IMG/VR virus record: IMGVR_UViG_3300046000_008888
Coordinates: 1 to 39,399 of that record
DNA from: a virus
Length of the DNA stretch: 39,399 nucleotides
Strand: one strand, 5' to 3'
The stretch's first letter is position 1, and the number at the start of each line of letters is the position of its first letter. Shown piece after piece: positions 2,052 to 31,505 of this stretch. Made by a program: the position numbers and the translations under genes. The notes beneath the pieces were generated by a model. That model was not told where the DNA came from. It did no database searches and worked only from the letters and a program-made list of their open reading frames with translations.

Positions 2052-2097
2052 TAAACTTAACTCACAAAACACGAAAAAGGTAATGAGAACCTACAAG

Positions 2098-2126: not shown

Positions 2127-2135
2127 TTTTATATC

Positions 2136-2169: not shown

Positions 2170-2173
2170 AGAT

Positions 2174-2635
2174 ATGGCAAATGGAATAACATACGGTATA
2201 AATTTCCCCTTTAGAGAAAGTTTAGACGGAAAGTATTTATCACTTTCACAAACAACTGATGAAGAAATAAGGACCGATTTAATACATCTATTACTCACAA
2301 GAAAAGGTAGTAGATATTATTTACCCGATTTTGGTACAAGATTGTATGAGTTTATTTTTGAACCATTAGACGGGGATACGTTTGATTCAATGAGAACTGA
2401 AATACAGGATTCTGTAACTAAATATATACCTAATCTAACGATTCAAAATATTAGTATTGAACCTTACGATTCGTCAGAAATTTCTAAAGGAGAGTTAAAT
2501 CCGGCACAGTTTGATTTACCAACATATGCGGTTCCGGGTGCCAATACTGAAGAATACACGGCAAAAATAAAGATTGAGTACATTAACGGAAATAATGCGT
2601 TTGGTACTAGAGAATTTGTAATAATCAATTTATAA
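2174..2635 (+). CDS. 25: Baseplate wedge protein, T4 gp25-like
   Basis: 153 residues. The GPW/gp25 family supplies the wedge component linking baseplate and tail tube or sheath start, with a lysozyme-like fold in the contractile-tail lineage. Family features seen are an N-terminal F-P-F-R segment, D-E-E-I-R-T-D-L (29-36), and L-T-R-K-G-S-R-Y-Y-L-P-D-F-G-T-R-L-Y-E-F (41-60) followed by F-E-P. The P-D-F-G-x-x-L stretch is the best-conserved part of gp25 proteins. Size is close to T4 gp25 (132 residues) with a small insertion near residues 105-125. It is the first gene of the baseplate block, two bases before the gp6-like gene, matching the gp25-gp6 pairing known in contractile injection systems. 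Confidence 0.92.
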   Translation: MANGITYGINFPFRESLDGKYLSLSQTTDEEIRTDLIHLLLTRKGSRYYLPDFGTRLYEFIFEPLDGDTFDSMRTEIQDSVTKYIPNLTIQNISIEPYDSSEISKGELNPAQFDLPTYAVPGANTEEYTAKIKIEYINGNNAFGTREFVIINL

Positions 2636-2637
2636 TT

Positions 2638-4479
2638 ATGGCTAATAGAAAAATATCATATACTGAAAGAGATTTTGAAGGTCTGAGAAACGACTTAATA
2701 AATTATACACAACAATATTATCCAGAATTAATTCAAAACTTTAATGATGCTTCGGTTTTTTCTGTATTGATGGATTTAAATGCTGCGATAGGTGATAATT
2801 TAAATTTTAATATTGATAGAAGTATACAAGAAACAGTTTTACAGTATGCGCAACAAAGATCATCAATATTTAATATTGCAAGAACTTATGGATTAAAAGT
2901 TCCTGGATATAGACCATCTGTCGCAATAGTTGACATATCAATAACTGTACCCGCATTAGGGGACTCTGAAGATATTAGATATTTGGGTATTTTAAGAACA
3001 GGAACACAATTTAATGGAGGAGGCACGACTTTTGAAACCGTTTATGATATTGATTTTTCTTCACAATATAACAGAGAAGGATTTATAAATAGAACAAAAA
3101 TTCCAATTTTTAGTGATAATAATAACTCACCATCACAATACGTTATAACAAAACGAGAGGTTGTGGTTAACGGAACAACACAAGTATTTAAAAAAGTTGT
3201 AACACCAGGAGAAGTGATACCATTTTATAATTTCTTTTTACCTGATAAAAATATATTAGGAGTAACATCGGTAATACAAAAAGAAGGGACGACCTATCAA
3301 GCAACACCATCCTTTTCTGAATTTGCGAGTTCAACAAATAGATGGTATGAAGTTGATGCGTTGGTTGAGGATACAGTATTTATTGAAGACCCAACAAAAC
3401 CTGTTGACAATGCAGGAGTAAAAGTTGGTAAGTATTTAAAAACGGATAATCGTTTCATTACCGAATATACGCCTGAAGGGTTTTTAAAAATTCAATTTGG
3501 TGCCGGTACGGTTACTCCTGATGAACAACTAAGACAATTCACGACGACAGGAATACCTTTAAAATTACAAAATTTTCAAAACAACATTGGATTAGGTTTA
3601 ACTGTAAAACCAAACACTACTCTGTTTGTCCAATATAGAACAGGTGGAGGACTCTCAAGTAATGTTGGTGTTGGGGCAATTAATCAAGTGGGTTTAGTTG
3701 ATTTCACAGTTAACGGACCTTCAGAGACAACTAATAATAATGTTATACAATCATTGAAAGTCAATAACGTAACTGCAGCAATTGGTGGAGCAAATCAACC
3801 TACAGTTGAAGAAGTTAGAAATATGGTTACATATAACTTTTCGGCACAAAAAAGGGCAGTAACAATTAATGACTACAAATCGTTAATTGATACAATGCCG
3901 GGTAATTTTGGGGCACCAGCAAAAGTGTCAATAACTGAAAATAATAATAAAATTGCAATCAAAATATTATCATACGATAGTACGGGAGTTCTAACTCAAA
4001 CTATTTCAAATAACTTAAAAACAAATTTGGCAACATACCTTTCAAAATTTAGAATGATAAACGATTATATTTCTATTGAAGTTGCAAAAGTGATTGATTT
4101 AGAGTTTGAATTTTACATTGTCTTAGATTCTAGTGGGTCACAAGGTGACGTTATTTCCCAAGTTATAAATTCTGTAAGTACCTATATGTCCCCTGCAAAT
4201 AGAGAGTTAGGTCAAAATGTTAATGTTTCAGAAATAAACACACTAATTCAAAATATTGCAGGGGTTAATGTACTATCTGAAGTTAGGATATATAATAAGA
4301 TAGGTGGACAATATTCGTCATCTGAAACTTCACAAAGGTACGTTGATAAAAATAACAAACAAATTGAATTAATTGACAATACTATCTTTGCTGAACCTGA
4401 CCAAATATATCAAATTAGATTCTCAAACAAAGACATTAAGGTTAGGATTAAAAACCTCACATCAGTAGACTTTTCATAA
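2638..4479 (+). CDS. 6: Baseplate wedge protein, T4 gp6 / baseplate J-like
   Basis: 613 residues, near T4 gp6 in length (660). gp6 forms the ring that holds the wedges together and connects to gp25, gp53 and gp7. Seen here are the N-terminal helix typical of the family, Y-T-E-R-D-F-E-G-L-R-N-D-L (8-20), then N-D-A-S-V-F-S-V-L-M-D-L-N-A-A-I-G-D-N (36-54) and a helix R-S-x-I-F-N-I-A-R-x-Y-G (75-86). Later, Y-K-S-L-I-D-T-M-P-G-N-F-G-A-P-A-K (about 413-429) is the J-like core, followed by beta-rich C-terminal segments. Start ATG lies two bases after the gp25-like stop. The identification rests on the N-terminus, the core and the position next to gp25. Confidence 0.88.
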   Translation: MANRKISYTERDFEGLRNDLINYTQQYYPELIQNFNDASVFSVLMDLNAAIGDNLNFNIDRSIQETVLQYAQQRSSIFNIARTYGLKVPGYRPSVAIVDISITVPALGDSEDIRYLGILRTGTQFNGGGTTFETVYDIDFSSQYNREGFINRTKIPIFSDNNNSPSQYVITKREVVVNGTTQVFKKVVTPGEVIPFYNFFLPDKNILGVTSVIQKEGTTYQATPSFSEFASSTNRWYEVDALVEDTVFIEDPTKPVDNAGVKVGKYLKTDNRFITEYTPEGFLKIQFGAGTVTPDEQLRQFTTTGIPLKLQNFQNNIGLGLTVKPNTTLFVQYRTGGGLSSNVGVGAINQVGLVDFTVNGPSETTNNNVIQSLKVNNVTAAIGGANQPTVEEVRNMVTYNFSAQKRAVTINDYKSLIDTMPGNFGAPAKVSITENNNKIAIKILSYDSTGVLTQTISNNLKTNLATYLSKFRMINDYISIEVAKVIDLEFEFYIVLDSSGSQGDVISQVINSVSTYMSPANRELGQNVNVSEINTLIQNIAGVNVLSEVRIYNKIGGQYSSSETSQRYVDKNNKQIELIDNTIFAEPDQIYQIRFSNKDIKVRIKNLTSVDFS

Positions 4480-4503
4480 GATTCTTTATTTTGGTTAATT
4501 AGA

Positions 4504-4523
4504 TATTACTTTTAAAAGTAATA
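4504..4523. promoter_or_regulatory. 20-bp perfect palindrome
   Basis: TATTACTTTTAAAAGTAATA in the 72-base gap between the gp6-like gene and the 2088-residue gene, followed at 4531 by a TATTTATC motif. It could be an operator site for a dimeric regulator. As an RNA hairpin it would have almost no loop and no T run. Confidence 0.45.
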
Positions 4524-4530
4524 ACATAAC

Positions 4531-4538
4531 TATTTATC
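4531..4538 (+). promoter_or_regulatory. TATTTATC motif, candidate late promoter
   Basis: 21 bases before the ATG at 4552, directly after the 20-bp palindrome. It has the same motif-to-start distance as the copy before the gene at 14475. Confidence 0.33.
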
Positions 4539-4551
4539 AACAAAGACAAAA

Positions 4552-12518: not shown

Positions 12519-13356
12519 TAAAATAATAAAAACGGTAAGTAATAAAGATGGTTTTATTAATATACCATTAGAAATAACTTTTGATTTTGAAGGTAGGGGT
12601 GATGCCGTTCGTGAGTATGAGACTAATGTGATAAAAGATATCATCAATCCACCACAGGATAGTGAAATAACAAAATTCGCACACTCAACATACACCGCAG
12701 GAATGGGACCATTCATCAATAACGTAAAAACATCAATAAATTACAAATTTTATTTTTATAATTTTTTATCTGAAGTTACTGCCTCCACAATTTCAAATTG
12801 GGCTATAGATTATCAAAACGCATCATTTACCGATAACGAAATATATTATTTTGCTAACTCATTTAAAGGTAGTTTTTTTAAGTTAGACTTTTACGACACA
12901 AACGTAAGTGAAAATCAAAGGATATTATTATCCGTGATATTACCAACACAACAAGGATTAAAAGAAAACGGATTAATAGGACCACCTAATAATTTAGTAA
13001 GCGTCCAAGTAAAAAAACCTGATTTTGTTTTAGATTACACAGGTGCGGATAAAGAAGGGTTTTTTATTTATTGGTTAAAAGATAAAAACTATTTTCCTCA
13101 GAATGAGTTTTATGTTAGTGCTAAATTTTTTAACGCAAAAAAAGGTGAATTTGTTAGAATGATAAATGTACCACAATCAACATTTGTTGGACCAAACATT
13201 TTTAATATAAATAAACAAGTATTTTTTTACTACAAATATGTTTTAAATTATAATACATACGAATATACGGTATATAGACAATCTATAAATGGTAGTTATA
13301 GTAGAGTTGGTACAGGGTTAAATCCCATAAAATGGTATGAATACGTTAACCCATAA
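12511..13356 (+). CDS. Putative tail structural protein
   Basis: About 281 residues from a GTG start at 12511, giving an 8-base overlap with the previous gene. A TTG at 12502 would add three residues. There is no early ATG in frame, so a non-ATG start coupled to the upstream stop is likely. Not recognised. The sequence is aromatic-rich, with N-I-P-L-E-I-T-F-D-F-E-G near the start and long beta-type stretches. It ends with TAATG shared with the next start. Confidence 0.6.
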   Translation: MNDKIIKTVSNKDGFINIPLEITFDFEGRGDAVREYETNVIKDIINPPQDSEITKFAHSTYTAGMGPFINNVKTSINYKFYFYNFLSEVTASTISNWAIDYQNASFTDNEIYYFANSFKGSFFKLDFYDTNVSENQRILLSVILPTQQGLKENGLIGPPNNLVSVQVKKPDFVLDYTGADKEGFFIYWLKDKNYFPQNEFYVSAKFFNAKKGEFVRMINVPQSTFVGPNIFNINKQVFFYYKYVLNYNTYEYTVYRQSINGSYSRVGTGLNPIKWYEYVNP

Positions 13357-14438
13357 TGAACCCTAAGAAAATTAATATAACAATATCTCCAGAAGTCCTT
13401 AAAGATGATATTTTTTTAGAGACATATAACACCAATACTTTTGGGGTATATAGTGGTCTGACCTACGTTTTAAGTGGGGGAACTAACGGATCGTCATTAT
13501 TGACAGGACTTACAATACCAATACTAATAGAACAAAGTATAAATGATATTGGTTATTATTCTGATTTTGATGGAATTATTGGACAACAAGATGTTGTTAC
13601 TAATTTTATAATATCAGGAAATCCTATTTCACCATATAACGTTGTGGTTTATAATAGTGCTGGATACAACTTCCAAAATTATTTAAACCTATCATTTTAT
13701 AATGTTAATTGGGGTGACGCATCTTCAACATCAAATTTAACTATTGATACTTTAAGTCAGGACCACACATATGCAACTACACCACAAACATACACCATAA
13801 CCTTTACTCAAACAAATCCTTGGGGTATAACTGAAGTTAAAAAACTTGTTACGGTACCATTTACAGGTGTTACCGTTGATAATTTATTGGGTGAAATTAC
13901 TTTTACACCACAAGGAGGAAGTTGGAGCGGGATTCCAATAAGTTACGATTACATATTTACGGGAGATTCAGAAAATAATATACAGGCACAATTATCAAGC
14001 AACTATACACAAGTACCTTTTATTATTAGCGGATACACAAACTCAAATCTAAAACAATTAAAAAGATGGGGACCACAAAGTTATAGTGTTGGGTACATTT
14101 TAAGTTTAGGAGGACAATCTGTTGGATATGTTAGTGAAATAACATCAACATATACGGCATATACTATTAACGACATCAATTACGTTGATTTTAATGACGG
14201 TAAAACAATTTTTGTTGTTGGGTCTTCAGGAACTACATCAAATAATATAGTGGCGTCTGCTATAACTAAAAATGAAATATTAATGGATTTTGTTATGGAC
14301 CCTGAAATACAGACAGATATATTAGTAGAAAGAGGACAATATTCCGCATTTGAATCCTTAGAAAGATTAGGTGAGGTGGATAATATTGGAGACATGGAGA
14401 AATACGGATATGGATATTTCAAAATTAATACAAATTAA
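13356..14438 (+). CDS. Putative tail structural protein with PKD-like segment
   Basis: 360 residues. Start and previous stop share the A of TAATG. Residues about 105-170 look like a PKD-type beta-sandwich: V-N-W-G-D-A-S-S-T-S-N, then D-H-T-Y-A-T-T-P-Q-T-Y-T-I-T-F. PKD domains are extracellular immunoglobulin-like modules common in adhesins and fibres. The C-terminal 60 residues are acidic and helical (F-E-S-L-E-R-L-G-E-V-D-N-I-G-D-M-E-K-Y-G), possibly an interaction tail. No closer family was recognised. Confidence 0.6.
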   Translation: MNPKKINITISPEVLKDDIFLETYNTNTFGVYSGLTYVLSGGTNGSSLLTGLTIPILIEQSINDIGYYSDFDGIIGQQDVVTNFIISGNPISPYNVVVYNSAGYNFQNYLNLSFYNVNWGDASSTSNLTIDTLSQDHTYATTPQTYTITFTQTNPWGITEVKKLVTVPFTGVTVDNLLGEITFTPQGGSWSGIPISYDYIFTGDSENNIQAQLSSNYTQVPFIISGYTNSNLKQLKRWGPQSYSVGYILSLGGQSVGYVSEITSTYTAYTINDINYVDFNDGKTIFVVGSSGTTSNNIVASAITKNEILMDFVMDPEIQTDILVERGQYSAFESLERLGEVDNIGDMEKYGYGYFKINTN

Positions 14439-14453
14439 AAAAACGACATAAAC

Positions 14454-14465
14454 TATTTATAAATA
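14454..14465 (+). promoter_or_regulatory. TATTTATAAATA motif, candidate late promoter
   Basis: TATTTATA (14454-14461) overlaps an exact T4 late -10 box TATAAATA at 14458-14465, nine bases before the ATG at 14475. It is the first intergenic gap after a run of four overlapping genes, so a fresh promoter here is reasonable. Confidence 0.42.
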
Positions 14466-14474
14466 AAAAGTAAA

Positions 14475-15383
14475 ATGGCTTTAGGAGCATATGGAATTGT
14501 AAGACCAGCAGACGTTTCACCACAAGATGTTGAAATAATATTACATTATACCCCATCAAGGGACGTGACAACAAATTTTGTATTAAAAAAGTTAAACGCA
14601 TCAAGTATATTAACACCTTATTTTCATAATGGAAGTACTGGAGGAAATAATAATGTTGAAATATTAGGTGGTTTATACAATCTTAAGTTACCTGCGACCG
14701 AGTTTTCAAATATTGGAATATATACGCTATATATAAGACCCGCAGAAATAAGAACAGTAATTAGTGATTGTGGAGTTTTAAGTGCTTTACCTAATGTTAG
14801 AGGAATTGTCATTGATATTAATCAAGTACCTCAGGCGTATAGAAATAAATTTGTAAGCCAAGGTCTTGTCGGGTTTAGAATTGAATATTTAAATTCTGAT
14901 GGAACAAAAATACCAAATTTTTATAGAATTGTAACATCCTCATTCTATTGTGAACCAGTATTCACTGATGTTAATAACACAACACAAAAAGCATTAAGAT
15001 ATAGATATGTTGAAGGAAATAGTGATTTAATGTTTTGTACATTATCACCATCGGCATCACCAACTAACAAACCAAACGCAACACCCTTCATTGGACAACC
15101 AAACCAAAACATTATAATTACTAATACATATTTTAACCCTATGACTGTTGAAGTACAAATCGCTAATTACGATATAGATACTTTAGCAATTGCATTATAC
15201 GGTAATCAAACTAAGAGTATTGATGATGGGATATACACATTGTACGATAGTTCAGGAAATATCTATAAACAATATAACCTATTTGAGGTTAGAGATAACT
15301 TTAATGAATTACTTTATGAGGTTAGACAAGATAGGGGTACTAACATTGATTTTAGTAAAAACTTCACAAACATTATTAGTTAA
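14475..15383 (+). CDS. Putative virion structural protein
   Basis: 302 residues, no family recognised. It starts M-A-L-G-A-Y-G-I-V-R-P-A-D-V-S-P-Q-D-V-E and is beta-rich. A Thr-, Ser- and Asn-rich stretch with C-T-L-S-P-S-A-S-P-T-N-K-P lies near residues 189-201. The C-terminus repeats the theme Y-D-S-S-G-N-I-Y-K-Q-Y-N-L-F-E-V-R-D-N, like a curled fibre or wedge tail. Its stop overlaps the next ATG by one base, which ties it to the 992-residue protein. Confidence 0.6.
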   Translation: MALGAYGIVRPADVSPQDVEIILHYTPSRDVTTNFVLKKLNASSILTPYFHNGSTGGNNNVEILGGLYNLKLPATEFSNIGIYTLYIRPAEIRTVISDCGVLSALPNVRGIVIDINQVPQAYRNKFVSQGLVGFRIEYLNSDGTKIPNFYRIVTSSFYCEPVFTDVNNTTQKALRYRYVEGNSDLMFCTLSPSASPTNKPNATPFIGQPNQNIIITNTYFNPMTVEVQIANYDIDTLAIALYGNQTKSIDDGIYTLYDSSGNIYKQYNLFEVRDNFNELLYEVRQDRGTNIDFSKNFTNIIS

Positions 15384-18361
15384 TGGCGACAACTAAGTAC
15401 ATATGCCCAAACCCCGCACCTGTTGGATCGGGTACGTTTTCTGATGACTTAGTTGGTTTTCAATTAGTATCGGGTGGAGGGCTAACGCAAGGAAACTTTG
15501 AATTCACAACATCAATATATGAGAAAGTTAACCGAACTTTTGATACTGGTGTTTTTTCCGATCCATACACATTAGAAACATTAAATATTGAATCAATTGC
15601 GGAAACCAAACAAATAATAAAAAAGAATTTTCAGGTTTACCCTAATTTTGATTTATCACAAATAACAAGTTTTTCTTTGTATGGGTCATTACAAAAAAGA
15701 ATGTCCGCATCAATAACTAAAATTATTAACTATTTTCCTGCGGCAATTCAAATTGATAGTCAAACTTACGGACTAACAACGGGTTATACTGCATATAACA
15801 TTGTATATGACCCAATTGAGAATGAAACAAGTTTTGAGGTAAACGTTGAATTCTTTAAGAACCCATTTGGTATTGATTACTCAGTTAACGCGACACAAAA
15901 TTTAAAAACAAGAACAACTAAGGTTAGTGATTATAGAAATATGACATCTAAATTTTTAGAGTATGCTTTATATGTCGGAGATTACAATAACCAATTTGAC
16001 ATTGTGGATTTTGACCCAACACAAACACTAAGTGCAGGAACAATCCCAATAGTGGTTAAAGGTAAACCATTTACCTCAACAACAACTACGGATTCAATAT
16101 TATTAAAACCAAACAACTTAACAACCGAGAAAATATTTCAAGATGCATTTGATGAGGTTGAAGATTATCTTTTAAATAGAAACGGATTTCCAAAATATAC
16201 AGTAAGTTTTAAATATCCTGATTATGACAGTAACGGTAATTATATCTTAATTAATCGTATTGTCACTTGGAAACTTGATGGGTTATGGAACTTAGATATT
16301 AGTACCGATAATTTTGACAAATATCTTGAAAGTATACAATATATTGCTGAAAGATTAGATGAATTTAAAACTAATCTTATTAGTAGATTTTTAACATCAG
16401 GAAGTTTAAAAGAATTTGATACTGGAGACCAAAAAGTTGAAAAAGTGTTACAAATTTACGGTAGAAGTTTTGATGAAACAAAAAAATTCATTGATGCCCT
16501 TAGTAACATAAATTCAGTAAACTATATTGTTGGTAATGATATACCATCACAATTACTATCAAATTTATCAAAAACATTAGGATGGAATTCAGGAGTCTCA
16601 CCTATCACTAATGACGGTTTACTTGAATCAATATTTACGACAACTAATGATGTAATATACCCTGGACAATCAAAAGAACAGACACCTGCTGAATTAAATT
16701 ACCAATATTATAGAAATCTAATATTAAATTCAGCATTTTTATTTAAATCAAAAGGTACAAGAAAATCTATAGAATACATTTTAAGAATGGTTGGGGCACC
16801 TGAAGCATTAATTGAATTTAATGAGTATGTTTATTTGGCTGACCAAAAAATATCATTAGATGAATTTGACACACAGTACGCAACTATATCAGGAGGGACC
16901 AAATATGTAACAAAACCTGTATATTTAAGTAATAACGTATTTTCTATTTGGGGAGTACAATATAGCGGATATTCAACTTCAGGAGTAATGGTTAGAAATA
17001 ATCTAACTATTAATGATTTTCCAATAGATACCGAAACTGGATATCCACAAACACCAACATATACTGACGATTATTTCTTTCAAAAAGGTGCTGGTTGGTT
17101 TGAGGTTACCCCACAACATAGGTCACCTGAAAAATTTAGTTATACTAAATCTGATTTAAATTCTCAGATACCTGTTATTAAATCGGTATTAGAACCTTTC
17201 ACATATGGTCAAGAGTATTTGGATAGATATAATAATTTTCCGTATTTAGATTTAGGGTATAATTTAACAAGAACGATAGATAATAAAAAATCTTGGAAAA
17301 GTAACGACATAGGACTAAGAAAAAGTACGGACCCTATATCATCAACAAATTATGATGTTGAGGATGATAGGTTAGTATTAAATGTTAAAAATATGGAGTT
17401 ATATCTAAATATGGGACAAGGTATAACTTACGACATTTGGTATATGTCGGCAAATTATGGATACCCAATACCTAATAGTGGATTAACTGCACCTTACCCA
17501 TCGCCTGGTGACGTTGATTGGACATATATTGACCCAAAACCAAATCAAAAAACATTTTTTGAATTTGCTCAAAGTTTTTATAATAATTTTATAAATGTTA
17601 GAAATAGACAATGGATATCTGACGGTAAAACAGGAGGATACCCAACACTACAATCTATTTTTTGGAAATATATTAATACTAATCAAACTTTAAATATTCC
17701 TAATAATGAGTTCACATATCAAAAAATGATAGACTTTACATTATCATTAGGTGATTATTGGATAAGATTAGTTGAACAATTTGTACCTGCAACCACTTTG
17801 TGGAATACAGGACAAAAAATGGACAATTCGGCATTCCATAGACAAAAATTTGTTTGGAGAAGACAAAGAGGTTGTACTTTCACACCACTTAACGTACCGT
17901 GTTTCCCTTGTACTTATAATGGAGAACCATATACGTACGACTGTATTGACCAAACAACACAATGTACTTTAACTATTTTTGACCCTATTGATGTGTTAAA
18001 TACCCAAGCACTTACACTAACCGGTGTTGGGCCATCTTGTAATTTTAATAGTATGGTTTCTAATTGGTATGTTAACCTTAAATTAATTGATATGATAACA
18101 AATCAAGAAGATACATTAATATCAGAACTTTTTTATACAGGTTATGGACAAAGTGCGGAAGACCCAATTAGTGGAATACCATTAACGTATTATGATGTTA
18201 TAAACGCAATAGATAATAAACTTCAGTATTTATATCAATACGGTTTAAACTATTATTTTACAGGTGGTGTTTTAACAATTAGTAATTCTACTTGTTATGA
18301 TGATTTCACAAATAAACGACTAAACCTAAGTATTGGTTTAGATATTAATATTGTTTGCTAA
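15383..18361 (+). CDS. Large baseplate protein with P2 gpI-like segment
   Basis: 992 residues. Residues about 440-475 read [20 protein letters not shown] then [10 protein letters not shown]. This closely resembles the K-S-K-G-T-x-x-x-I-x-x-L-L segment of P2 gpI-like tail proteins, which sit at the baseplate edge where fibres attach. The middle part has [13 protein letters not shown] (about 572-584). The C-terminal 130 residues form a separate Cys-containing domain with C-F-P-C-T-Y-N-G-E and C-I-D-Q-T-T-Q-C. It is the last gene before the adhesin block, so it may be the adaptor that carries the fibres. That is inference. Confidence 0.65.
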
Positions 18362-18363
18362 TA

Positions 18364-21123
18364 ATGGCTTGTATTTCAGGAATTACTTTAGGAGGTTATT
18401 ATAGTTATTTTGATTGTTGCGGATTAAATCAATCGGGTATTAGTCCTGGTTTACAAAGCGTGTGTGTTGATTCGGCATATTCTGCAAGTACCGTAGGATT
18501 ACTATTATATAGTGGAACACCTTGTACCTTAGATTGTAATCAAGGACCACTTAGTTATACTTTTACCGTTACGGGAGTTTGTAACAACCCAACAGGGCAA
18601 GTAACAATACAACCATATGGGGGAACACCACCATACACTATTGATAATATAACACCAGGAGGTATTTCCGCTCAAACAAGTACTTCAGCAATAACCTTCA
18701 CGGGTTTAACTGGAGGGACTTATGTTTTTAGACTTAACGACTCTCTTGGAATTCAAAACAACGAATTATTTATTAACGTTGAAATATCAGATTGTTTTAG
18801 TGCAAATATAACAAACACTAGTGGAACCACTTGTGGTAATGATAACGGATCGTTTTTTGTTAATTCAACCTCAACTGCGGCACCATATAGTTTAATACTT
18901 TATAAAGATAATCTATTTTACCAAAATTATTTAACAAATACTTTACCATACCAAATAAACGGGTTGTCTGATGGAATATATTATGCAACCATTTACGATT
19001 ATGGGTTTAGTACCGCAAATACCGAAAACGTCATAATATCCGCGAGTACAGGAACGCAATTTGGTTTATGGAAAGTAAACGCATCTAATTGCGTTATAAA
19101 TACAGGTAAACTTGCCGTAACGGGAATAACGGGTACAGGACCATACACGTATTTATGGTCAGACGGACAAACATCACAAGTAGCGACAGGATTGACTGTT
19201 GGAACATATAGTGTTACGGTTACTGATTATTACGGATGTGAAACAACAGGTTCGGATACTATTGGTGTTGCCGACCCACTTGGCGTTGGTTTACTATCAT
19301 CAGTTAATCCTTCTTGTTTTGCGTCTGACGGTTCTATAACTGTTACATTAACAGGCGGAACCGCACCATTTTATTATTCTGCAAATACAGGACAACAAGG
19401 GTATACGTTATCAAACACATTTACAATACCCAATATACCCGCAGGGCCATATGTTATTAGTGTTAGAGATGCTAATTTCTGTCCACTTAATGTTTTTGCA
19501 ACACTAACAACAGTTAATGGATTTAATGTTATTAGTACGACTGTTGTAAATAATAATTGTAATCCAGGAAATGCTCAAATAATTGCAAATATTGAAGGAA
19601 TAACCCCATTTTTATATTCATTATCCGGTATTAGTACTAACTACTATAGTAGTTTTTCAACAACAAATGAATTAACGACTTTTACAAATTTACAAGACGA
19701 CACGTATGTTCTTATCATATCTGGACAATCAAGTGGATGTTATTATGTTGATTCACTTGTTGTTCAAACTCAGTCAACATTTGGAATTAACGTTTCATTA
19801 ACGGGGGCCACTTGTGGTTCACCTAACGGTGCGGTTACAATTGACGTAACAACGGGATATACGGGACCTTTAGATTTTATTTTAATTGGTGGAGAAACTC
19901 AATCCGTTATTGATTGGCCATTGTCATCGTACACGTTTAATTACCTACAACCAGGAAATTATGAAATTCAAGTGATTGATGGTCTTAATTGTATTGTTTC
20001 ACAAAACTTTAGTATTGGGTCCTTAGGGTTATTAAATTCTAACGTTATAACAACCGATTGTGTTTTGGGTAATGACGGTGCGGTTGAAGTAATTGTTTAC
20101 GAGGGTGAACCACCATTTACCTATACTTGGTCAAATAATGTACCTGTAGGACAAACGGGGTCAACAATAAACGGATTATCAGGAGGAACGTATCAACTAA
20201 TAGTTACGGATAGTAGTGGGTGTACAGACACAACAATTTTTAATATTAACTGTAACGTTAATCTTATAACGGGAACCACAAGCTATGAAATCTGTGATAA
20301 TTCTTTTACAACTACAACAGGAAACAAAAGAGGGATAGTTGAAATGATTTCAGAAGGGTTTTTGGATTTAACATCTGGATATACAAATTGTTATATTAAC
20401 TATTACACATTAGAGTGTAATATTAATTTAAATGGAAGTGCCTTCACTCAAACGGTATTAGTTGAAAACGACAGCGGATGGCAACAATCAATAGAAACTA
20501 TATTATCATCAATACCTGAAGTTGGGGATTACCAAATTGATTTATTAAACAATACATTATTTATTGCATCTAATTGTCAAGTAGGTGAAGACCCACTTGG
20601 AAATGCGGGGTTCAGTTTAGCGTTAGTCGTGGAATATGATATTAGCTGCGAGGATATCGTACCAACACCTACACCAACACCTACCGCAACTCCAACACCT
20701 ACACCAACACCTACCGCAACTCCTACACCAACACCTACACCAACATCTACGGTTACACCAACACCTACACCAACATCTACGGTTACACCAACACCTACCC
20801 CATCACCATCACCAACACCAACACCTACTCCTGTTTATTATACTTGGTTATCGAATAGCGCTTATTATGCTCTTGGTGTACCACAAACCTGTGCAGACCC
20901 GATTGGTTCGTTAACCCTTTATACATCAACACCAACATTAAGTGTGGGAACAGTACTTTATACTAACCCTTCTTTAACTACTACGGTCTCACCATCAGCG
21001 TCTTGTGGAGGGGCGCCAGGGACTTTATGTCAAAAGGCGATTAAATCTTCTAACCCTTTAAGTCTTAGACGAAAAGTAACCGTAGGAGGTGGTGGAACCA
21101 TCGTATATTTACAAAATTGTTAA
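18364..21123 (+). CDS. SprB-repeat adhesin/tail fibre with Pro-Thr linker
   Basis: 919 residues from ATG 18364; a TTG at 18355 would add three residues and overlap the previous stop. The N-terminus is Cys-rich ([12 protein letters not shown]). Residues about 60-640 hold around seven SprB-type beta repeats with the pattern G-x-x-P-Y-x-Y-x-W-S-x-G, then G-L-x-x-G-T-Y-x-V-x-V-T-D-x-x-G-C. Clear copies are [13 protein letters not shown] and [13 protein letters not shown]. SprB is the cell-surface gliding adhesin of flavobacteria. A pure Pro-Thr/Ser linker (about residues 767-822) leads to a C-terminal domain of about 95 residues. Probably a receptor- or glycan-binding fibre. No signal peptide was seen, as expected for a virion protein. 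Confidence 0.8.
20661..20832 (+). repeat. Pro-Thr-coding tandem repeat (linker of SprB-type adhesin)
   Basis: Imperfect hexamer array based on CCAACA and CCTACA, coding (P-T)n. Larger units are duplicated in tandem, for example a 30-base unit ending in ACATCTACGGTT, near 20729-20758 and 20759-20788. It codes for an extended stiff linker. Confidence 0.9.
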
Positions 21124-21126: not shown

Positions 21127-21414
21127 ATGGCGTATTCAATAGACATAACAGGAGTAAGTGGGGGAACGGCACCAATAAATTACTACGTGTGTGACCAAAA
21201 TGGTAATAACTGTACATTTTTAGGTACATCTATTGGAATATATGTTTTACCTATCTTTTATCAAAACGCAACTACATTATTAATACAATCTATAGACAGC
21301 GGAGGTTGTTATAATTTTAAATTATATACTTGTGTTGATACTTGTTTCATATTAACAGAAGACTTATTTGAAATAACTGCAGAAAATGGAGATAATTTGA
21401 CATTATGTGATTAA
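21127..21414 (+). CDS. Small fibre-associated protein, paralogue family copy 1
   Basis: 95 residues. Pattern: I-T-G-V-S-G-G-T-A-P-I-N-Y-Y-V-C-D, then N-C-T-F-L-G, I-Y-V-L-P, and I-Q-S-I-D-S-G-G-C. Same layout as the products at 21429 and 29040: G-T-x-P-hydrophobic-x-V-C-D, a Cys about ten residues on, and (I/L)-x-x-I-D-x-x-G-C near residue 60. It starts three bases after the SprB-type adhesin stop. The single beta domain resembles half of an SprB-like unit. It may be a tip, cap or fold helper of the adhesin; that is inference. Confidence 0.7.
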   Translation: MAYSIDITGVSGGTAPINYYVCDQNGNNCTFLGTSIGIYVLPIFYQNATTLLIQSIDSGGCYNFKLYTCVDTCFILTEDLFEITAENGDNLTLCD

Positions 21415-21428: not shown

Positions 21429-21713
21429 ATGATACTTCAAATAACAGGAACAACTAGTGGAACATCACCTTATGACGTTTTTTTATGTGATGAAAATAAT
21501 ACCTCATGTTTTTATATATCGGGATTAACAAACATTCCTCCTGATGTTTATATATTAACCGATAATTATTTTCCTGGAGAAAATGTACTTTTTGTTAAAT
21601 TAATAGATTTAAATGGGTGTATTCACGAACAAAAAATAGTGTGCGGAGAACAGTTATTCCTAGATGGATTTGGATTTATATTTATGGATGATAACTATTT
21701 TACATTCCAATAA
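21429..21713 (+). CDS. Small fibre-associated protein, paralogue family copy 2
   Basis: 94 residues: I-T-G-T-T-S-G-T-S-P-Y-D-V-F-L-C-D-E-N-N, S-C-F-Y-I-S-G, V-K-L-I-D-L-N-G-C, then an acidic, aromatic C-terminus (F-I-F-M-D-D-N-Y-F-T-F). The C-terminal theme of Gly and Phe with a final D-D-x-Y-x-F is closest to the copy at 29040. Placed between copy 1 and the long fibre gene. Confidence 0.7.
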   Translation: MILQITGTTSGTSPYDVFLCDENNTSCFYISGLTNIPPDVYILTDNYFPGENVLFVKLIDLNGCIHEQKIVCGEQLFLDGFGFIFMDDNYFTFQ

Positions 21714-21741: not shown

Positions 21742-24330
21742 ATGCCAATAACTTATCAATATTTAACGGACAGAACCTTAGTTACACAAAGTGCGGTAAC
21801 TACAGACAGTTTAATACACGTTGTTATTCCAGCTGACATATCACAAAATCCTGCAGGATCATCATATAAGGCAAAACTTTCGCAAGTGATAAATGTATTT
21901 TCTTCTTACTTCGTTAACACAAGTGGGGATACTATGACTGGAACATTAATTGTCCCAACAATATCAGCAACAACATACAATAACTTACCATCCACATCAG
22001 GATTATATCTACCATTAAGTGGTGGAACAGTAACAGGAAAAACAATTTTTAATCAGGGTTTAACGGCAACAACAATATCTGCAACCACTTATTTAAATTT
22101 ACCTACCACAACTAACGGTTACCTACCATTAAGTGGTGGAACTGTGACAGGTAATACAAGTTTTACAAGTGGTGTTACCGCTAACACAATATCTAACACA
22201 ACATATATTGATTTTACTACGGGATCCACAAATCCTTCTGCTGTTGGCGGAAGAATGTTCTTTGATAATACATCAAAGTCATTATCTTATTACGATATTA
22301 TTGGTAATAACGTTCCAATTGCAATGGGACAACAACTATATGTTAGAGGAAATAACGCAACAGGATCACAGATAAATAAAGGTAGTGTTGTTATGGTTAC
22401 AGGAACTACTAATACATTACCGAGCATTGCATTAGCGACAAATAATCACGCACAAGGAACACCACGACCAATCGGGTTGGCGGCTGAAAACATATCAAGT
22501 GGTAGTGATGGTTTAGTCATTGTTAATGGTATATTAAGTGGTATTACATTAAATACCTTTGCAAATGGGGACACATTATATTTGTCCAACTCAACACCTG
22601 GAGGATATGTTAACTCAACCTCATCGTTACCGTTTAGTGCAAGAACAAATGAAATTGGTTATGTGTTACAAACAGGAACAACAACAGGTAAAATATATGT
22701 AAATATTAATAATGAAGATAGTAATTTAACTTTAACCGATATTGAAAGAAATATCCTTGAGGGTAATGTAATTTCAACGGGAATATATGAGTATACAGGA
22801 ATGTCTGTTGCCAGTTCCACAACAATAAATGTTGCTCCCGCTAGAGGATGGATCGTAAATAACACATATAATTTTGCAACATCACCTGATGTTACTAATC
22901 TTTATTATTCGGGTGGAACAGGAATTACAATGACAAACATCGCAACTGCAGACGCCACCTACATTTTATTAACTAGTGCGTCCACAATAACACAACAAAC
23001 AACATTCCCAACACCACAACAAAGAAGAGAAAATATACTTTTAGGTAAAGTTGTTCACCCAAGTAGGACATCCATATTAAATGTTAACAATACTGTAGAT
23101 TTTGACGTTTCACCTATGTCGGCACTTCGTGATTTATGGACACCGATAAGATTAATAAATCAAGGAGTAATACCATCTGCGAATACTGGACTAACAATTA
23201 ATACAACTGCTGGGACTTTATGGGGTAATGGTATTGGGTGGGTATCAAATCAATTAAACCCTGATAGTGTTAGTATTTCGGCAAAAACACCAGCATCTTT
23301 CTTTTATAGAACACAAACAGGAGGAACAAGTGGTTCGGTATCAGTTATAGATCCAACAAAATATGATGTTGGCGGGGTCATCACAAGTATGGGTGCTGCG
23401 GGTGTTGACGACTCATCCAACCAAAGAATTTACCTTTACCCAACTGGAGTTATAAATATCCTATATGGACAACATAAATACAACAATTTGGCTGCGGCGG
23501 TTGCCGCGATACAATCAGAAACCTTTGTGGTTTATCCAAATGCTGAAACTACAGGTATTTTAATTGGTGTGTTATCAGTTAGAAACGATATTGTTGCTGA
23601 CGGTGAAGCGTTAACAAACACTGATTATGCTAAATTCACATTAGTTTCTAAATTTGGTGAGAGTTTTGGTGGAACGGGTGGTTTATCTACAACAACACTA
23701 CAACAAGCATATAATAATTCGGTAACACCCGAAATAACCACTAATTCAACATTAGGTCCGTTAAGTGTTAAAAATGGTGCAGGTACATTGGATAATGTTA
23801 CAAACGTTTTTGAGGGTGTTAACGCTACAGGAACAACAACATCATATGTTCGTGCCGATGGTGCAATATTAGGAACATCAATATCTGCAACAACATTTAA
23901 TCTTGCGGGTTCACAAATAGAATCTGCTTGGACATCATATGTTCCCGTTTGGACTGCAAGTGGTACTAATCCAGTGATTAATAATGGAACTATAGAAGGT
24001 TGGTATAAAGTAATTGGTAAAACGTGTTTTGTAAGAGGAAATATTGCGATGGGTAGTACAACAACTTTTGGTACAGGAGAATGGTACGTCTCGATGCCGG
24101 TTACAGCTGTACACGCTGACGCCATATTAATGACGGTAACTTTATTAGATAATGGTAGTGCTTGGTATAACGCTACAATGGCTGGAGGAAGAGCGGGGTT
24201 TAACACTAAAGCCCCTATGCAATATGTAAATATTGTAAATGGAACTGCTAGTGACGTAAATGTGACCCAACCATTTACTTGGGCAAATGGTGATAGATTT
24301 ATTTGGAACGGGTCATATGAGATAGCTTAA
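21742..24330 (+). CDS. Tail fibre protein with repeat stalk and receptor-binding tip
   Basis: 862 residues. Residues 1-55 (S-L-I-H-V-V-x5-S-Q-N-P-A-G-S-S-Y-K) match the N-terminus of the 175-residue protein at 29348 and probably form the shared attachment module. Residues 90-165 carry a 38-residue repeat with Y-L-P-L-S-G-G-T-V-T-G and I-S-A-T-T-Y, the phage fibre stalk repeat. The middle is a long beta-rich stretch with L-A-A-A-V-A-A-I-Q. The C-terminal 140 residues (W-T-S-Y-V-P-V-W-T-A-S-G-T-N-P, G-W-Y-K-V-I-G-K-T-C-F-V-R-G, T-T-F-G-T-G-E-W) resemble tip domains of many phage fibres. The next two genes are glycosyltransferases. Confidence 0.88.
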   Translation: MPITYQYLTDRTLVTQSAVTTDSLIHVVIPADISQNPAGSSYKAKLSQVINVFSSYFVNTSGDTMTGTLIVPTISATTYNNLPSTSGLYLPLSGGTVTGKTIFNQGLTATTISATTYLNLPTTTNGYLPLSGGTVTGNTSFTSGVTANTISNTTYIDFTTGSTNPSAVGGRMFFDNTSKSLSYYDIIGNNVPIAMGQQLYVRGNNATGSQINKGSVVMVTGTTNTLPSIALATNNHAQGTPRPIGLAAENISSGSDGLVIVNGILSGITLNTFANGDTLYLSNSTPGGYVNSTSSLPFSARTNEIGYVLQTGTTTGKIYVNINNEDSNLTLTDIERNILEGNVISTGIYEYTGMSVASSTTINVAPARGWIVNNTYNFATSPDVTNLYYSGGTGITMTNIATADATYILLTSASTITQQTTFPTPQQRRENILLGKVVHPSRTSILNVNNTVDFDVSPMSALRDLWTPIRLINQGVIPSANTGLTINTTAGTLWGNGIGWVSNQLNPDSVSISAKTPASFFYRTQTGGTSGSVSVIDPTKYDVGGVITSMGAAGVDDSSNQRIYLYPTGVINILYGQHKYNNLAAAVAAIQSETFVVYPNAETTGILIGVLSVRNDIVADGEALTNTDYAKFTLVSKFGESFGGTGGLSTTTLQQAYNNSVTPEITTNSTLGPLSVKNGAGTLDNVTNVFEGVNATGTTTSYVRADGAILGTSISATTFNLAGSQIESAWTSYVPVWTASGTNPVINNGTIEGWYKVIGKTCFVRGNIAMGSTTTFGTGEWYVSMPVTAVHADAILMTVTLLDNGSAWYNATMAGGRAGFNTKAPMQYVNIVNGTASDVNVTQPFTWANGDRFIWNGSYEIA
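22009..22142 (+). repeat. Fibre stalk repeat, 114-base period
   Basis: The 20-mer CTACCATTAAGTGGTGGAAC occurs at 22009 and again at 22123, in frame, giving a 38-residue protein period. Weaker copies of the I-S-A-T-T-Y part occur before and after, and once more near 23882. Confidence 0.85.
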
Positions 24331-24367: not shown

Positions 24368-25615
24368 ATGAAGATTTTTATACAAATTGCGTCTTATAGA
24401 GACCCTGAACTAATACCGACAATTAAGGATTGTATTAATAACTCTAAGTATCCTGAAAATTTAGTATTTGGTATTTGTAGACAATTTCATCCTGAAGATA
24501 AGTTTGATGATTTATCGGAATATAATAACGATGACAGGTTTAGAGTTATTAACGTACCATATTTAGAAGCGAAAGGAGTTTGTTGGGCAAGAAATCAAGT
24601 TCAACAATTATACAAAGACGAAGAGTATACTCTTCAAATAGATTCCCATATGAGATTTGAAAAAAATTGGGATGAAACATTAATTGAGATGATTCACCAA
24701 CTTCAAGAAATAGGAATACCAAAACCATTACTTACAGGGTACGTATCATCATATAATCCACAGAATGATCCTGAAGGAAGGGTTAGAGTTCCTTGGAGAA
24801 TGACTTTTGATAGATTTATACCTGAAGGGGCCGTTTTCTTTTTACCTGAAACGATCCCAAATTGGGAAGATATTGAATTACCTGTACCGTCAAGATTTTA
24901 TTCTGCTCATTTTTGTTTTACTTTAGGAATATTTTCAAAAGAGGTTCAACATAACCCTGAATTTTATTTTCACGGGGAAGAAATATCAATTGCTGTTAGG
25001 GCATTCACCCATGGATATGATTTATTTCACCCACATAGAGTTGTACTATGGCATGAATACACAAGAGATGGTAGAACAAAACATTGGGATGATGATAAAG
25101 AATGGTGGAAATTAAATAACAGTGCACATAATTTGAATAGGTTGTTGTTTGGTATGGACGGTAACGAACAATCAGGACATAACGGTAAATATGGGTTTGG
25201 AACTGTTAGGACATTAAGGGATTATGAAATTTACTCAGGATTACTTTTTTCAAAACGAGCAGTACAAAAATACACATTAGATAAAAGTTACCCACCAAAC
25301 CCATATGATTTTAATAGTGAAGAAGAATGGATTACTAGTTTTTCTACAATATTCAAACATTGTATTGATTTAAATTTAGATAGAGCACCATTTGATGATT
25401 ATGATTTTTGGGTTGTGGCGTTTCATAATTCAAAAGGAGACACAATTAATAGACTTGATTTAAACAAAGATGAAGTTAAACAACTACAAAAAGATACTAC
25501 AGGAGTTTGTAAAATATGGAGAGAGTTTCAAACAACAGAAAAACCATCATATTGGGTTGTGTGGCCTTACTCATCATCTAAAGGATGGTGTGATAAAATA
25601 GAAGGTAAATTATAA
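24368..25615 (+). CDS. Glycosyltransferase, Skp1/polypeptide GlcNAc-transferase-like (GT60 type)
   Basis: 415 residues. The N-terminus I-F-I-Q-I-A-S-Y-R-D-P-E-L-I-P-T-I-K (3-20), A-K-G-V-C-W-A-R-N-Q-V-Q (68-79) and the catalytic-type L-Q-I-D92-S-H94-M-R-F-x3-W-D are the hallmarks of the GlcNAc-transferase family that includes Dictyostelium Skp1 GlcNAc-transferase. That enzyme adds GlcNAc to a hydroxyproline, and relatives act on Thr. The D-S-H triplet is the metal- and sugar-nucleotide-binding motif. F-H-G-E-E-I-S-I-A-V-R-A-F-T-H-G-Y-D (about 198-215) is the second conserved part. It lies six bases before a second glycosyltransferase and directly after a fibre gene, so virion protein glycosylation is more likely than DNA modification. 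The acceptor is inferred, not shown. Confidence 0.88.
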   Translation: MKIFIQIASYRDPELIPTIKDCINNSKYPENLVFGICRQFHPEDKFDDLSEYNNDDRFRVINVPYLEAKGVCWARNQVQQLYKDEEYTLQIDSHMRFEKNWDETLIEMIHQLQEIGIPKPLLTGYVSSYNPQNDPEGRVRVPWRMTFDRFIPEGAVFFLPETIPNWEDIELPVPSRFYSAHFCFTLGIFSKEVQHNPEFYFHGEEISIAVRAFTHGYDLFHPHRVVLWHEYTRDGRTKHWDDDKEWWKLNNSAHNLNRLLFGMDGNEQSGHNGKYGFGTVRTLRDYEIYSGLLFSKRAVQKYTLDKSYPPNPYDFNSEEEWITSFSTIFKHCIDLNLDRAPFDDYDFWVVAFHNSKGDTINRLDLNKDEVKQLQKDTTGVCKIWREFQTTEKPSYWVVWPYSSSKGWCDKIEGKL

Positions 25616-25621: not shown

Positions 25622-27325
25622 ATGAGAATTTGTATAGTCACTTTATTCACTGAAGAAATAGAAAAAGAATCAAGATTAGCAACATTAAATAAAAAAAAAT
25701 ATTGTGAAAAATATAATTTAGATTATAGATTTTTTTACGGTAGAGCATCTGATAGGCACGCACAATGGGACAAGATACAATGTTTAATACAAACATTACC
25801 TGAGTATGATTATGTGATATGGATGGATAGTGATACCGTGTTTAATAATTTTGATATATCATTTATTGATTTAATTAAAAACAACTTAAACTTTGATTCA
25901 TTATTTTGTAGTGATGTATGTTATACTGAAGGGGTTGTGCACCTTATGGTTAACACTGGTGTTATGATATTTAAAAACACTGAATGGTCGTCAAATTTAT
26001 TAAATAAAGTTTGGAATAGCATTCCTGAATATAGTTTAGATAAATTAGATAAACATTCATATGATGGTTTCCCACACGAACAAGGTAAAATGTGTGAAGA
26101 ACTTAATAGAGAAAATACGGACAAGTTTAAAATATTCCCATCCACGGAATTTAATAGCCACCCAAATTCATCAAATGACAAAACATTTATTATCCATCAT
26201 ATGGGTAGCAGACAATCTGAATCTCACCTATCAACTTTTATTAATTCGGTTAAAAGAGTTAATAATAATTTAGGTATTAATGAAAATGAAACCTTTGATG
26301 TTATTAATTTAAAAAAATTAAAAATATGTTTAGTATCTCATTACACTGAAAATATTCAAAATGTTGCAAACATCACTATCCCTAATAAGGAAAGTTACTG
26401 TAAAAAACATAATTACGATTTTAAATACCATAAAGGAAGATTAAGTGATAGACACCCTGGTTGGGACAAAATATTATACCTAAAAGAGATTATGTCAACA
26501 AATGAATACGATTACGTTGTTTGGGTAGATAATGACGCATATATTACAAATAAAGAAATTAGATTTGATTTTATTTGTAATGAAAACCCAAGTAAAAAAT
26601 TAATGATAGCATCAGAAGATACAAATAGAGGTATAACATCATTAAACCCTAATTTAGATTACAATCAACTACATAATTTAAGAATAGTTAACACAGGAGT
26701 AATGATATTAAAAAATGATGATTGGACAATTAATTTTTTAAACACTGTATGGAATACTAAAAGTAATACAAATAGAGGGATTGAATACTCACATAAAGAA
26801 ATAATTAATAATAATTTTAACTACGAATATTGGCCGTTTGAACAAGGACCTATACATTTGGTACTTTCACAATCAAGTCCCGATGATTATAAAATTTTTA
26901 ATAGTGAAATTTTAAATAGGTTTAGAACTGACCATAAAAAACAACATTTTATTTGTCATTTTGTTGGTGAGGGTTCTAATGACATTACAATAAAAAATTA
27001 TATAGAAAGTTTATCAGAACAAAATAAAAAAACATTAATTAAAAGTTTTAACGTTACCGCACCATTTAAAGACAGGTTTACCAGACTATATTGTGAAATA
27101 TATAAAAATAATGATTTATACAGGTTAAAGTATATTTGGGATTACTCTAATATTGGAATTGACCATTTAAGTCATTCATTTGAGATTATTGACGGTAATA
27201 TCAGAAAACAAATTGATTTTGATAGTAATAGTACGGGTTCCTTTGAATTTAAAAACTTAGACAGTAAAAAAATTAACCATTCATATAATTGGTTTGGTGA
27301 GTGCGATTGGAAACAAATACTATAA
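25622..27325 (+). CDS. Tandem-domain glycosyltransferase, GT34 (GMA12/MNN10)-like
   Basis: 567 residues with two copies of one fold. Domain 1 (about 1-215): I-C-I-V-T-L-F-T, Y-C-E-K-Y-N-L-D-Y, H-A-Q-W-D-K-I-Q, then Y-V-I-W-M-D69-S-D71. Domain 2 (about 230-440): I-C-L-V-S-H-Y-T, Y-C-K-K-H-N-Y-D-F, H-P-G-W-D-K-I-L, then Y-V-V-W-V-D303-N-D305. Each has the D-x-D motif for metal and nucleotide-sugar binding and a later N-T-G-V-M-I stretch, so both look active. A C-terminal part (about 450-567) is different and ends C-D-W-K-Q. The W-D-K and W-(M/V)-D-x-D layout is that of galactosyl- and mannosyltransferases of GT34 type. It could extend a sugar placed by the upstream enzyme. Donor and acceptor are unknown. 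Confidence 0.85.
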   Translation: MRICIVTLFTEEIEKESRLATLNKKKYCEKYNLDYRFFYGRASDRHAQWDKIQCLIQTLPEYDYVIWMDSDTVFNNFDISFIDLIKNNLNFDSLFCSDVCYTEGVVHLMVNTGVMIFKNTEWSSNLLNKVWNSIPEYSLDKLDKHSYDGFPHEQGKMCEELNRENTDKFKIFPSTEFNSHPNSSNDKTFIIHHMGSRQSESHLSTFINSVKRVNNNLGINENETFDVINLKKLKICLVSHYTENIQNVANITIPNKESYCKKHNYDFKYHKGRLSDRHPGWDKILYLKEIMSTNEYDYVVWVDNDAYITNKEIRFDFICNENPSKKLMIASEDTNRGITSLNPNLDYNQLHNLRIVNTGVMILKNDDWTINFLNTVWNTKSNTNRGIEYSHKEIINNNFNYEYWPFEQGPIHLVLSQSSPDDYKIFNSEILNRFRTDHKKQHFICHFVGEGSNDITIKNYIESLSEQNKKTLIKSFNVTAPFKDRFTRLYCEIYKNNDLYRLKYIWDYSNIGIDHLSHSFEIIDGNIRKQIDFDSNSTGSFEFKNLDSKKINHSYNWFGECDWKQIL

Positions 27326-29039: not shown

Positions 29040-29327
29040 ATGGCAACAATAGTAACAGTAAATTCAACAACAGGAACCTTACCATTAGATATATGGGTTT
29101 GTGATACGTGTACAGGGGCATCACCAACCTGTCAATACATTGGAACAACAAGTACATTTCCATATAATTTTACATTACCATCAATATACGAATCAAGTCA
29201 AGTATACTCAATAAAATTTATAGATGATAACGGATGTGTATATTGTGAGGAGTATTCTTACTATAAACAATTTGAGGGTGGAGAAGTATTCTTCTTTAAT
29301 GATGGTACACCATATGAATTTGAATAA
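29040..29327 (+). CDS. Small fibre-associated protein, paralogue family copy 3
   Basis: 95 residues: T-G-T-L-P-L-D-I-W-V-C-D-T-C-T-G, T-C-Q-Y-I-G-T, F-T-L-P-S-I-Y, S-I-K-F-I-D-D-N-G-C-V-Y-C, then F-F-F-N-D-G-T-P-Y-E-F-E. Same pattern as the two genes at 21127 and 21429. As there, it follows a Pro-Thr adhesin within three bases and precedes a fibre gene with the shared attachment N-terminus. Confidence 0.7.
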   Translation: MATIVTVNSTTGTLPLDIWVCDTCTGASPTCQYIGTTSTFPYNFTLPSIYESSQVYSIKFIDDNGCVYCEEYSYYKQFEGGEVFFFNDGTPYEFE

Positions 29328-29879: not shown

Positions 29880-31505
29880 ATGGCAGGATATACAGGAAAT
29901 ACGTGTGATATTATAACATTATTCCCATTGGGGGTTATATGTCAGAGTGTAAATGCATATACACCATTCACAAGTGATGGTGCAATAAATTTATTTATAA
30001 CAGGAGGTACACCACCATATACAATAACTTGGAATAACGGATCACAAAGTCAAAATATAACTAATTTACAATCAGGAAATTATACGGCAACAATAAAAGA
30101 TTATTACGGTGATTTTAGTGCAACGACAACTTGTACCGTTGGTTACGATACGTTTTATATTGAAAAATTTAAAAATTGTACAACATTATCTGAAATTTAT
30201 TATAATGCCAATTTAAGTTTACTATATAGCGGAGGTTCAATTTACTCTTTAAATAATCAACAAGGGTGTTGGATTAGTGAAGGTATTGAGTTATACACAG
30301 GACAAACTTATTATAACTATAGTGCGGTAACCGTTACAGGACCATTTGAAAATTGTTCAGAATGTTTACCAACGGCACCCGTTGTTTTAAATACATCTGC
30401 TCTATGTCTAACAAACATATATCAGTCAACAGTAACTCAATATCAGTTTTTTTCTGGAGGGACAATTAATGGGTACCCTTCTTGGACATCATCAACTAAT
30501 AATCAAGTAATATATTATAACACAACAAACACAAGTTGGAGAATAACTGGATGGCCATTAAATGGTACACCGTATCTACAAAATGCGACAAGTCCACCAA
30601 TTGGTACTTGGGATATGTTGAATTCAATTCCGGCAAGTATTATAACAGTCAATCAAGGTAGTTGTGGTAATGTTATGACGGCAACAGTGACTAGTACTCC
30701 TCCATTATGTCAAGGAGGAACTAACGGAACTATTACGGTCACTTCAGTTGCTGGAGGAACCGCACCATATACATACTCATTAATTGATGATTTAAGTTTT
30801 TACCAATCATCCCCGACATTTTTAAACCTTAGTGAAGGTAACTATACAGTCTTTATTCAAGATCTTTTTGGTAACGTTACAGTTAATACTGTTAATTTAT
30901 TATCGCCAACACCACCGACACAATATACAATTAACTTAACTTTAACACCTACAAATGGTACACAATTAAATTTCACAACAACAAATACAACTAAGTTATG
31001 GAATTGGTCTGTTTCTGTGACACCACCGCTACCTGCGGGTAAAGAACTTAATTTTACGTTAACACATGCATCAAATTATTCGGCAACAACTGTTGGGGTA
31101 AACACCTCATCTGTATCTTATAGTCAAACAACAGGTACCACAGGAGGAGGTCAGTTTTTAACTTCCCAAACCCCAATAGTGATAACAAATAACTCATCAA
31201 CAGTCCCTTGTTCAAGTACTTTAACATACACAAATTATTTAACAAATAGCACAATTAGACAATATACGGCAAAAATTGTTGGTACAGGTACTGTAAATGG
31301 CACAGTAACACAAGGTGTCACAGTTACCAATAATGTAAACGGTTGTGTGGTAACTGCAGAAATAATAGATAGCATATCTATAACTAACATACAATTAGTT
31401 AACCAAAATCAATGTGAGATAATAAATACTAACATACAACCATTAACATTTAGTTTAGGTAGAACTGGAACACCAGCAGCTTCCATTAATAACCAACAAC
31501 TATAA
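29880..31505 (+). CDS. SprB-like repeat adhesin/tail fibre
   Basis: 541 residues. Residues 30-90 are one SprB-type unit ([17 protein letters not shown], then L-Q-S-G-N-Y-T-A-T-I-K-D-Y-Y-G). A second lies at about 270-345 (G-G-T-N-G-T-I-T-V, G-T-A-P-Y-T-Y-S, S-E-G-N-Y-T-V-F-I-Q-D-L-F-G). Between them are two modules also seen in the adhesin at 27408: one with Q-G-C-W-I and closing C-S-E-C, and one with N-G-Y-P-S-W-T-S-S-T and I-Y-Y-N-T-T. The C-terminal 190 residues are Thr- and Asn-rich beta structure without linkers. It follows the 175-residue gene by four bases. Confidence 0.75.
   Translation: MAGYTGNTCDIITLFPLGVICQSVNAYTPFTSDGAINLFITGGTPPYTITWNNGSQSQNITNLQSGNYTATIKDYYGDFSATTTCTVGYDTFYIEKFKNCTTLSEIYYNANLSLLYSGGSIYSLNNQQGCWISEGIELYTGQTYYNYSAVTVTGPFENCSECLPTAPVVLNTSALCLTNIYQSTVTQYQFFSGGTINGYPSWTSSTNNQVIYYNTTNTSWRITGWPLNGTPYLQNATSPPIGTWDMLNSIPASIITVNQGSCGNVMTATVTSTPPLCQGGTNGTITVTSVAGGTAPYTYSLIDDLSFYQSSPTFLNLSEGNYTVFIQDLFGNVTVNTVNLLSPTPPTQYTINLTLTPTNGTQLNFTTTNTTKLWNWSVSVTPPLPAGKELNFTLTHASNYSATTVGVNTSSVSYSQTTGTTGGGQFLTSQTPIVITNNSSTVPCSSTLTYTNYLTNSTIRQYTAKIVGTGTVNGTVTQGVTVTNNVNGCVVTAEIIDSISITNIQLVNQNQCEIINTNIQPLTFSLGRTGTPAASINNQQL

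Follow-up and report, generated by a model that had tools for sequence, protein, structure and literature searches.

The protein encoded at 18364–21123 of the window (the complete IMG/VR record IMGVR_UViG_3300046000_008888, a genome fragment of 39,399 bases) contains exactly seven SprB repeat units and is probably a tail protein of the virion, in which the units would form a stalk of fixed length, held by a docking module and carrying a variable tip for host contact. Its open reading frame, on the + strand, starts at 18355 (TTG) or at 18364 (ATG), the latter being kept among close orthologues, and ends at 21123, giving 919 aa from the ATG. The Pfam SprB repeat model PF13573, a profile search proposed in the first-pass annotation, matched the protein in five stretches with 67 bits (cut-off 28; E 1.1e-18). 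A 65-position unit model with phage sequences among its training set found exactly seven units, spanning 18577–20250. A second unit model, built from bacterial proteins plus the single LR756502 locus, recovered all seven with a whole-protein E of 4e-57, scoring five units at 24–61 bits and units 2 and 5 weakly at 9–11 bits, and none of 400 shuffled copies of the protein scored with it. The SprB repeats that had been proposed at 18543–20270 from the letters alone are thus borne out, with all seven units lying inside that span. The motif described for about seven units, P-(Y/F)-x-Y-x-W-S-x-(G/N) with G-x-Y-x-(V/I)-x-V-x-D-x-x-G-C, is literally complete only in some of the seven, such as unit 3 (PYTYLWSDG...) and unit 7 (PFTYTWSNN...), the others being degenerate.

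Table 1. Features of the window around the SprB-repeat gene (aa positions counted from the ATG start).
Feature	Position	Strand	Basis or remark
T4 gp6-like baseplate wedge	2638..4479	+	phrog_219, E 1.4e-20
992-aa conserved tail protein, directly upstream of the SprB gene	15383..18361	+	relatives in IMG/VR
SprB-repeat tail protein, 919 aa	18364..21123	+	ORF; PF13573 67 bits; gene context
N-terminal segment, aa 1-62, Cys-rich	18364..18549	+	closer relatives only; coverage 0.47 in 44-row alignment
SprB unit 1, aa 72-133	18577..18762	+	unit models
SprB unit 2 (divergent), aa 155-224	18826..19035	+	unit models
SprB unit 3 (canonical), aa 241-300	19084..19263	+	unit models
SprB unit 4, aa 314-382	19303..19509	+	unit models; top Pfam stretch of the protein
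SprB unit 5 (divergent), aa 395-468	19546..19767	+	unit models
SprB unit 6, aa 482-552	19807..20019	+	unit models
SprB unit 7 (canonical), aa 562-629	20047..20250	+	unit models
Conserved alpha/beta module, aa 632-763	20257..20652	+	homologous to C-terminal domain of the 992-aa protein
Thr-Pro repeat linker, aa 764-823	20653..20832	+	sequence; predicted disordered, pLDDT mostly <50
C-terminal tip, aa 824-919 (96 aa)	20833..21120	+	least conserved part
Small 95-aa protein after the SprB gene	21127..21414	+	paralogue of 94-aa neighbour
Small 94-aa protein	21429..21713	+	paralogue of 95-aa neighbour
Tail fibre protein	21742..24330	+	phrog_16641, E 4.4e-16
Second SprB protein, 541 aa, units at 29967-30140 and 30702-30908	29880..31505	+	PF13573 54.8 bits; unit model

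The SprB gene lies in a tail gene cluster that is syntenic across relatives, with genes for a gp6-like wedge and a tail fibre nearby. The 992-aa gene directly upstream has at least 228 related stretches in IMG/VR, on contigs as long as 297 kb; 80 of these stretches were fetched for comparison, with roughly 50–77% identity in that gene. SprB units were found in the gene next to it in 60 of the 64 neighbourhoods counted as judgeable (at least 2 kb of further sequence after the 992-aa gene); the other four contigs stop inside a long downstream ORF or shortly past it. All 35 relative records searched contained SprB matches. The 992-aa protein showed a weak profile match to a long protein encoded a few genes past the wedge in the phages Mel-JY01 (E 1e-6) and immuto (6e-4), whereas its profile matched no solved structure and its poor model gave no Foldseek E under 0.001; a baseplate role, suggested by position and the weak profile match, is therefore putative. 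Since a tail sheath (PF04984) was detected at E 1e-3 or better in all nine long relatives, five of them above the cut-off, and a T4-type major head protein in two long relatives, the gene content places the lineage among large contractile-tailed, T4-like phages (myoviruses). As to the earlier proposal that the repeats sit on a phage fibre, the tail gene cluster agrees with it, while the location on the virion is inferred from gene order and context; the 919-aa protein had no PHROG match at 1e-3, tail-fibre families included.

Further genes of the window encode a primase, an exonuclease, a RuvC-like resolvase and part of a ribonucleotide reductase. The two small proteins that follow the SprB gene have a third paralogue at 29040–29327; these 94–95-aa proteins are kept in relatives and weakly resemble an SprB unit (hhalign 82%). 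The gene at 4552–10818 encodes 2088 aa and matches DUF5122 beta-propeller repeats (148 bits), two glycosyltransferase genes (PF11397 and PF05637, at 24368–25615 and 25622–27325) lie amid the tail fibre genes, and a 542-aa protein encoded at 27408–29036 has Thr-Pro linkers like the one in the SprB protein.

The SprB units are predicted to be beta-sandwiches, with moderate to good confidence (pLDDT about 75–90). Their best solved Foldseek match was to pieces of the grappling hook protein GhpA of Aureispira (9flw and related; E 1.4e-17), and a VIA-align list, mostly of fibronectin-type domains, adds only the Ig/FnIII-like nature of the units. The unit sequence profile also matched a decoration protein (5lxk, E 5e-5) and the neck-whisker protein gp24 (9occ, E 9e-4), and the Ig-like domains of decoration and neck-whisker proteins are already known on virions. 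A head or neck decoration protein, comparable to Hoc or T5 pb10, would agree with these profile matches and with the match of the second, 541-aa SprB protein to a PHROG filed under head and packaging. However, the decoration and neck-whisker matches cover the Ig-like domain only, the SprB gene has baseplate genes on one side and tail-fibre genes on the other and lies about 100 kb from the head genes in a relative of 229 kb, and its product has a module in common with the 992-aa protein, which makes this alternative improbable compared with a tail stalk.

That module, located between the SprB units and the Thr-Pro linker, aligned with the C-terminal domain of the 992-aa protein in hhalign (96.8%, E 2.6e-10), its HMM matched relatives of the 992-aa protein with E down to 7e-11, and the order of helices and strands is identical in the two predicted models. 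Its presence in both proteins suggests that it is probably the anchor that docks the SprB protein to the tail. The linker would be flexible and carry the small variable tip, which most likely contacts the host. Mean identity among 14 close orthologues was 0.35 for the tip versus 0.40–0.69 for the SprB units, with units 1, 3 and 4 the best conserved parts of the whole protein. The tip profile matched none of the other fibres of the window, and no part of the 44-row alignment was conserved well enough to be used in a genome scan. At the other end, the N-terminal segment was modelled with low confidence (pLDDT 36–48) and, inspected by eye, the N-terminus shows neither the charged n-region nor the hydrophobic core expected of a signal peptide. 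Some stalk orthologues are extended at the N-terminus, by roughly 100 to over 2,000 aa, and in two of them (L026, 12940–19380; L030, 12949–16854) the extension contains VWA domains; no MIDAS motif was matched in these by the pattern used. The VWA domains could provide extra contacts. Both ends vary, so that either may be the distal one.

Unit number was nearly constant: 55 of 60 distinct orthologues have exactly seven SprB units, and the other five comprise two proteins cut by contig ends and three with six recognised units. Units at the same position in different phages are more alike (identity 0.45) than units at different positions within one phage protein (0.30). The phylogeny of phage and host units, proposed earlier as a check, was built from 93 phage and 237 bacterial units; phage units grouped by position and largely apart from bacterial ones, with 11 changes between phage and host on the tree versus about 82 in shuffles. 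The near-fixed number of seven, the positional orthology and the separation from bacterial units indicate that the array is old and has been kept at a set length; it appears to have been in place before the family diverged and to have been inherited vertically, and the SprB domain would have entered the phage lineage at an early date. Single units could raise the suspicion that this phage recently captured part of a host gliding adhesin, the closest pair being a phage unit 62% identical to a bacterial one, but the array occupies the same place across a family with roughly 50–77% identity in the neighbouring gene, the units stand apart from bacterial units on the tree, and the window protein has no type IX signal, so that we regard such a capture as highly improbable. 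That seven units are nearly always kept, even where the proteins share as little as 30% identity, opens a molecular-ruler hypothesis to testing.

The same near-fixed number and positional orthology, together with the lack of signs of recent exchange with hosts, underlie the interpretation of the array as a stalk. The first-pass annotation had instead proposed that the repeats could be adhesive and bind polysaccharides or surfaces. If the units themselves were adhesive, they would attach to polysaccharide on the host surface or to extracellular matrix and keep the virion close to host cells; bacterial surface proteins indeed carry homologous domains, Ig-like arrays of phage tails have often been proposed to bind surfaces (PMC6949934), conserved stalks can also bind ligands, and the strong conservation of units 1, 3 and 4 would be in line with binding. 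The analysis came across no binding data on SprB units. A near-constant number of units with position-specific orthology fits a structural element better, and the fast-evolving part is the tip; adhesive units are accordingly a less favoured and rather unlikely explanation. For the further suggestion that tails track along moving surface proteins, the analysis yielded nothing in support.

The SprB module also occurs in other proteins of these phages. Homologues of the 541-aa SprB protein of the window are found in many relatives, with their parts rearranged; a weak match of this protein to GldM (E 0.3) was judged to be due to chance. No CHU_C or Por_Secre_tail type IX domain was matched across the whole window record, but in relatives type IX secretion signals occur on separate SprB proteins, whose signal peptides were judged by eye. 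The 229-kb relative (G002) encodes, after its genes for the head protease and the major head protein, two SprB proteins with Por_Secre_tail, one of them a subtilase, and elsewhere in the record an SprB protein with CHU_C. SprB proteins with signal-peptide-like starts are located in this genome at 5629–9258 of locus L182 (G002 60000–76000) and 6775–8985 of L183 (G002 1–15000); among the SprB proteins of these two loci most have type IX signals, one has a subtilase domain, and three lie directly downstream of the major head protein. Other type IX-tagged phage proteins are encoded in L185 (from G023; 4891–7116 and 10518–14561) and L184 (from G033; 7886–10322), a set that comprises an SprB protein with CHU_C, a protein with ten PKD domains and CHU_C, and a CHU_C protein of 190 aa. 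The SprB protein of G023 carries its type IX signal like those of G002, and the CHU_C protein of G033 adjoins a one-unit SprB-like protein after the head gene. A cultured phage, Flavobacterium phage immuto (NC_055915.1; L179, 1006–1737), encodes a 243-aa cohesin protein with a type IX sorting domain (Por_Secre_tail), and earlier papers had already reported such sorting domains in phage genes (PMC7468147; PMC6949934). We speculate, with low confidence, that the SprB module is used twice, in a fixed virion stalk and in separate proteins exported by the type IX system of the host, and that the two could interact. If so, phage proteins shown on the surface of infected cells would hold virions there or keep them off, or would cover the surface while infection proceeds. 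The position of type IX-tagged SprB genes next to capsid genes in relatives suggests that the phages also write onto the host surface by means of host secretion.

The closest cellular relatives of the repeats were from Bacteroidota in 78 of 79 loci and include Saprospiraceae, Cytophagales and Chitinophagales. The remaining locus (CASBQM010000121.1), on a contig of 3.2 kb, was assigned to a cyanobacterial bin but is probably Bacteroidota DNA placed there in error. SprB was detected in 27 of 118 sampled Bacteroidota genomes versus 2 of 117 in the cyanobacterial control phylum, and the same 3.2-kb contig comes from one of these two. The gp6-like wedge shares 28% identity with that of Flavobacterium phage immuto, equal to its identity with an uncultured phage, and is nearly as close to a phage recorded from Microcystis. 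The repeats had been said to point strongly to the host group, after a match to the flavobacterial SprB; this inference is good at the level of the phylum Bacteroidota and does not extend to flavobacteria in particular or to any finer level. At the phylum level, the SprB array can help to assign such phages to Bacteroidota hosts from their sequence.

Bacterial SprB repeat proteins of Bacteroidota have the PF13573 domain in common with the phage protein, which matches it above the cut-off, and a model of bacterial units finds all seven phage units. They nevertheless differ in architecture: the phage array nearly always has seven divergent units (identity 0.30), while in bacterial SprB proteins the median is 16 recognised units over the stretches fetched, with 0.48 identity among units, and the window proteins are without the type IX sorting domain. 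GhpA, the best solved structural match, is likewise a multi-domain surface protein of Bacteroidota, but it is a very large bacterial protein and the match, at about 17% identity, is one of fold. Among phages, UniProt and BFVD hold a 714-aa 'SprB repeat' protein of an uncultured Caudovirales phage (A0A6J5LD72), which matches structurally with E 5e-57 at 30% identity and is probably an orthologue of the 919-aa protein; it bears a database name only, with no description in the literature searched. The only GenBank phage record that matched, the huge phage LR756502.1, also has a PF13573 array (L091, 13453–18465). Unlike the window protein, its 1670-aa SprB protein has 13–14 similar units, PKD and a terminal CHU_C, and its gene lies among metabolic genes (topoisomerase, SpoVR, glutamate synthase); by these features it appears to be a secreted host-type protein and not a tail stalk, and a scan for relatives of it found none. 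Flavobacterium phage immuto, Mel-JY01 and LR756508 lack SprB, no cultured phage in the collection searched had a seven-unit array, and a literature search with most subscription journals outside it found no description of SprB repeats on virions. Among described systems, the BACON arrays of crAss-like phages (PMC6949934) come closest: there, Bacteroidetes-type domains also form arrays near tail genes, the prototype has a constant eight domains distinct from bacterial copies, and the C-terminus is poorly conserved. BACON belongs to another domain family and to another phage group than the SprB lineage with its T4-like head, gp6-like wedge and sheath. A domain seen as a mark of gliding and surface proteins of Bacteroidota is here a constant and probably virion-borne part of a large uncultured T4-like group.
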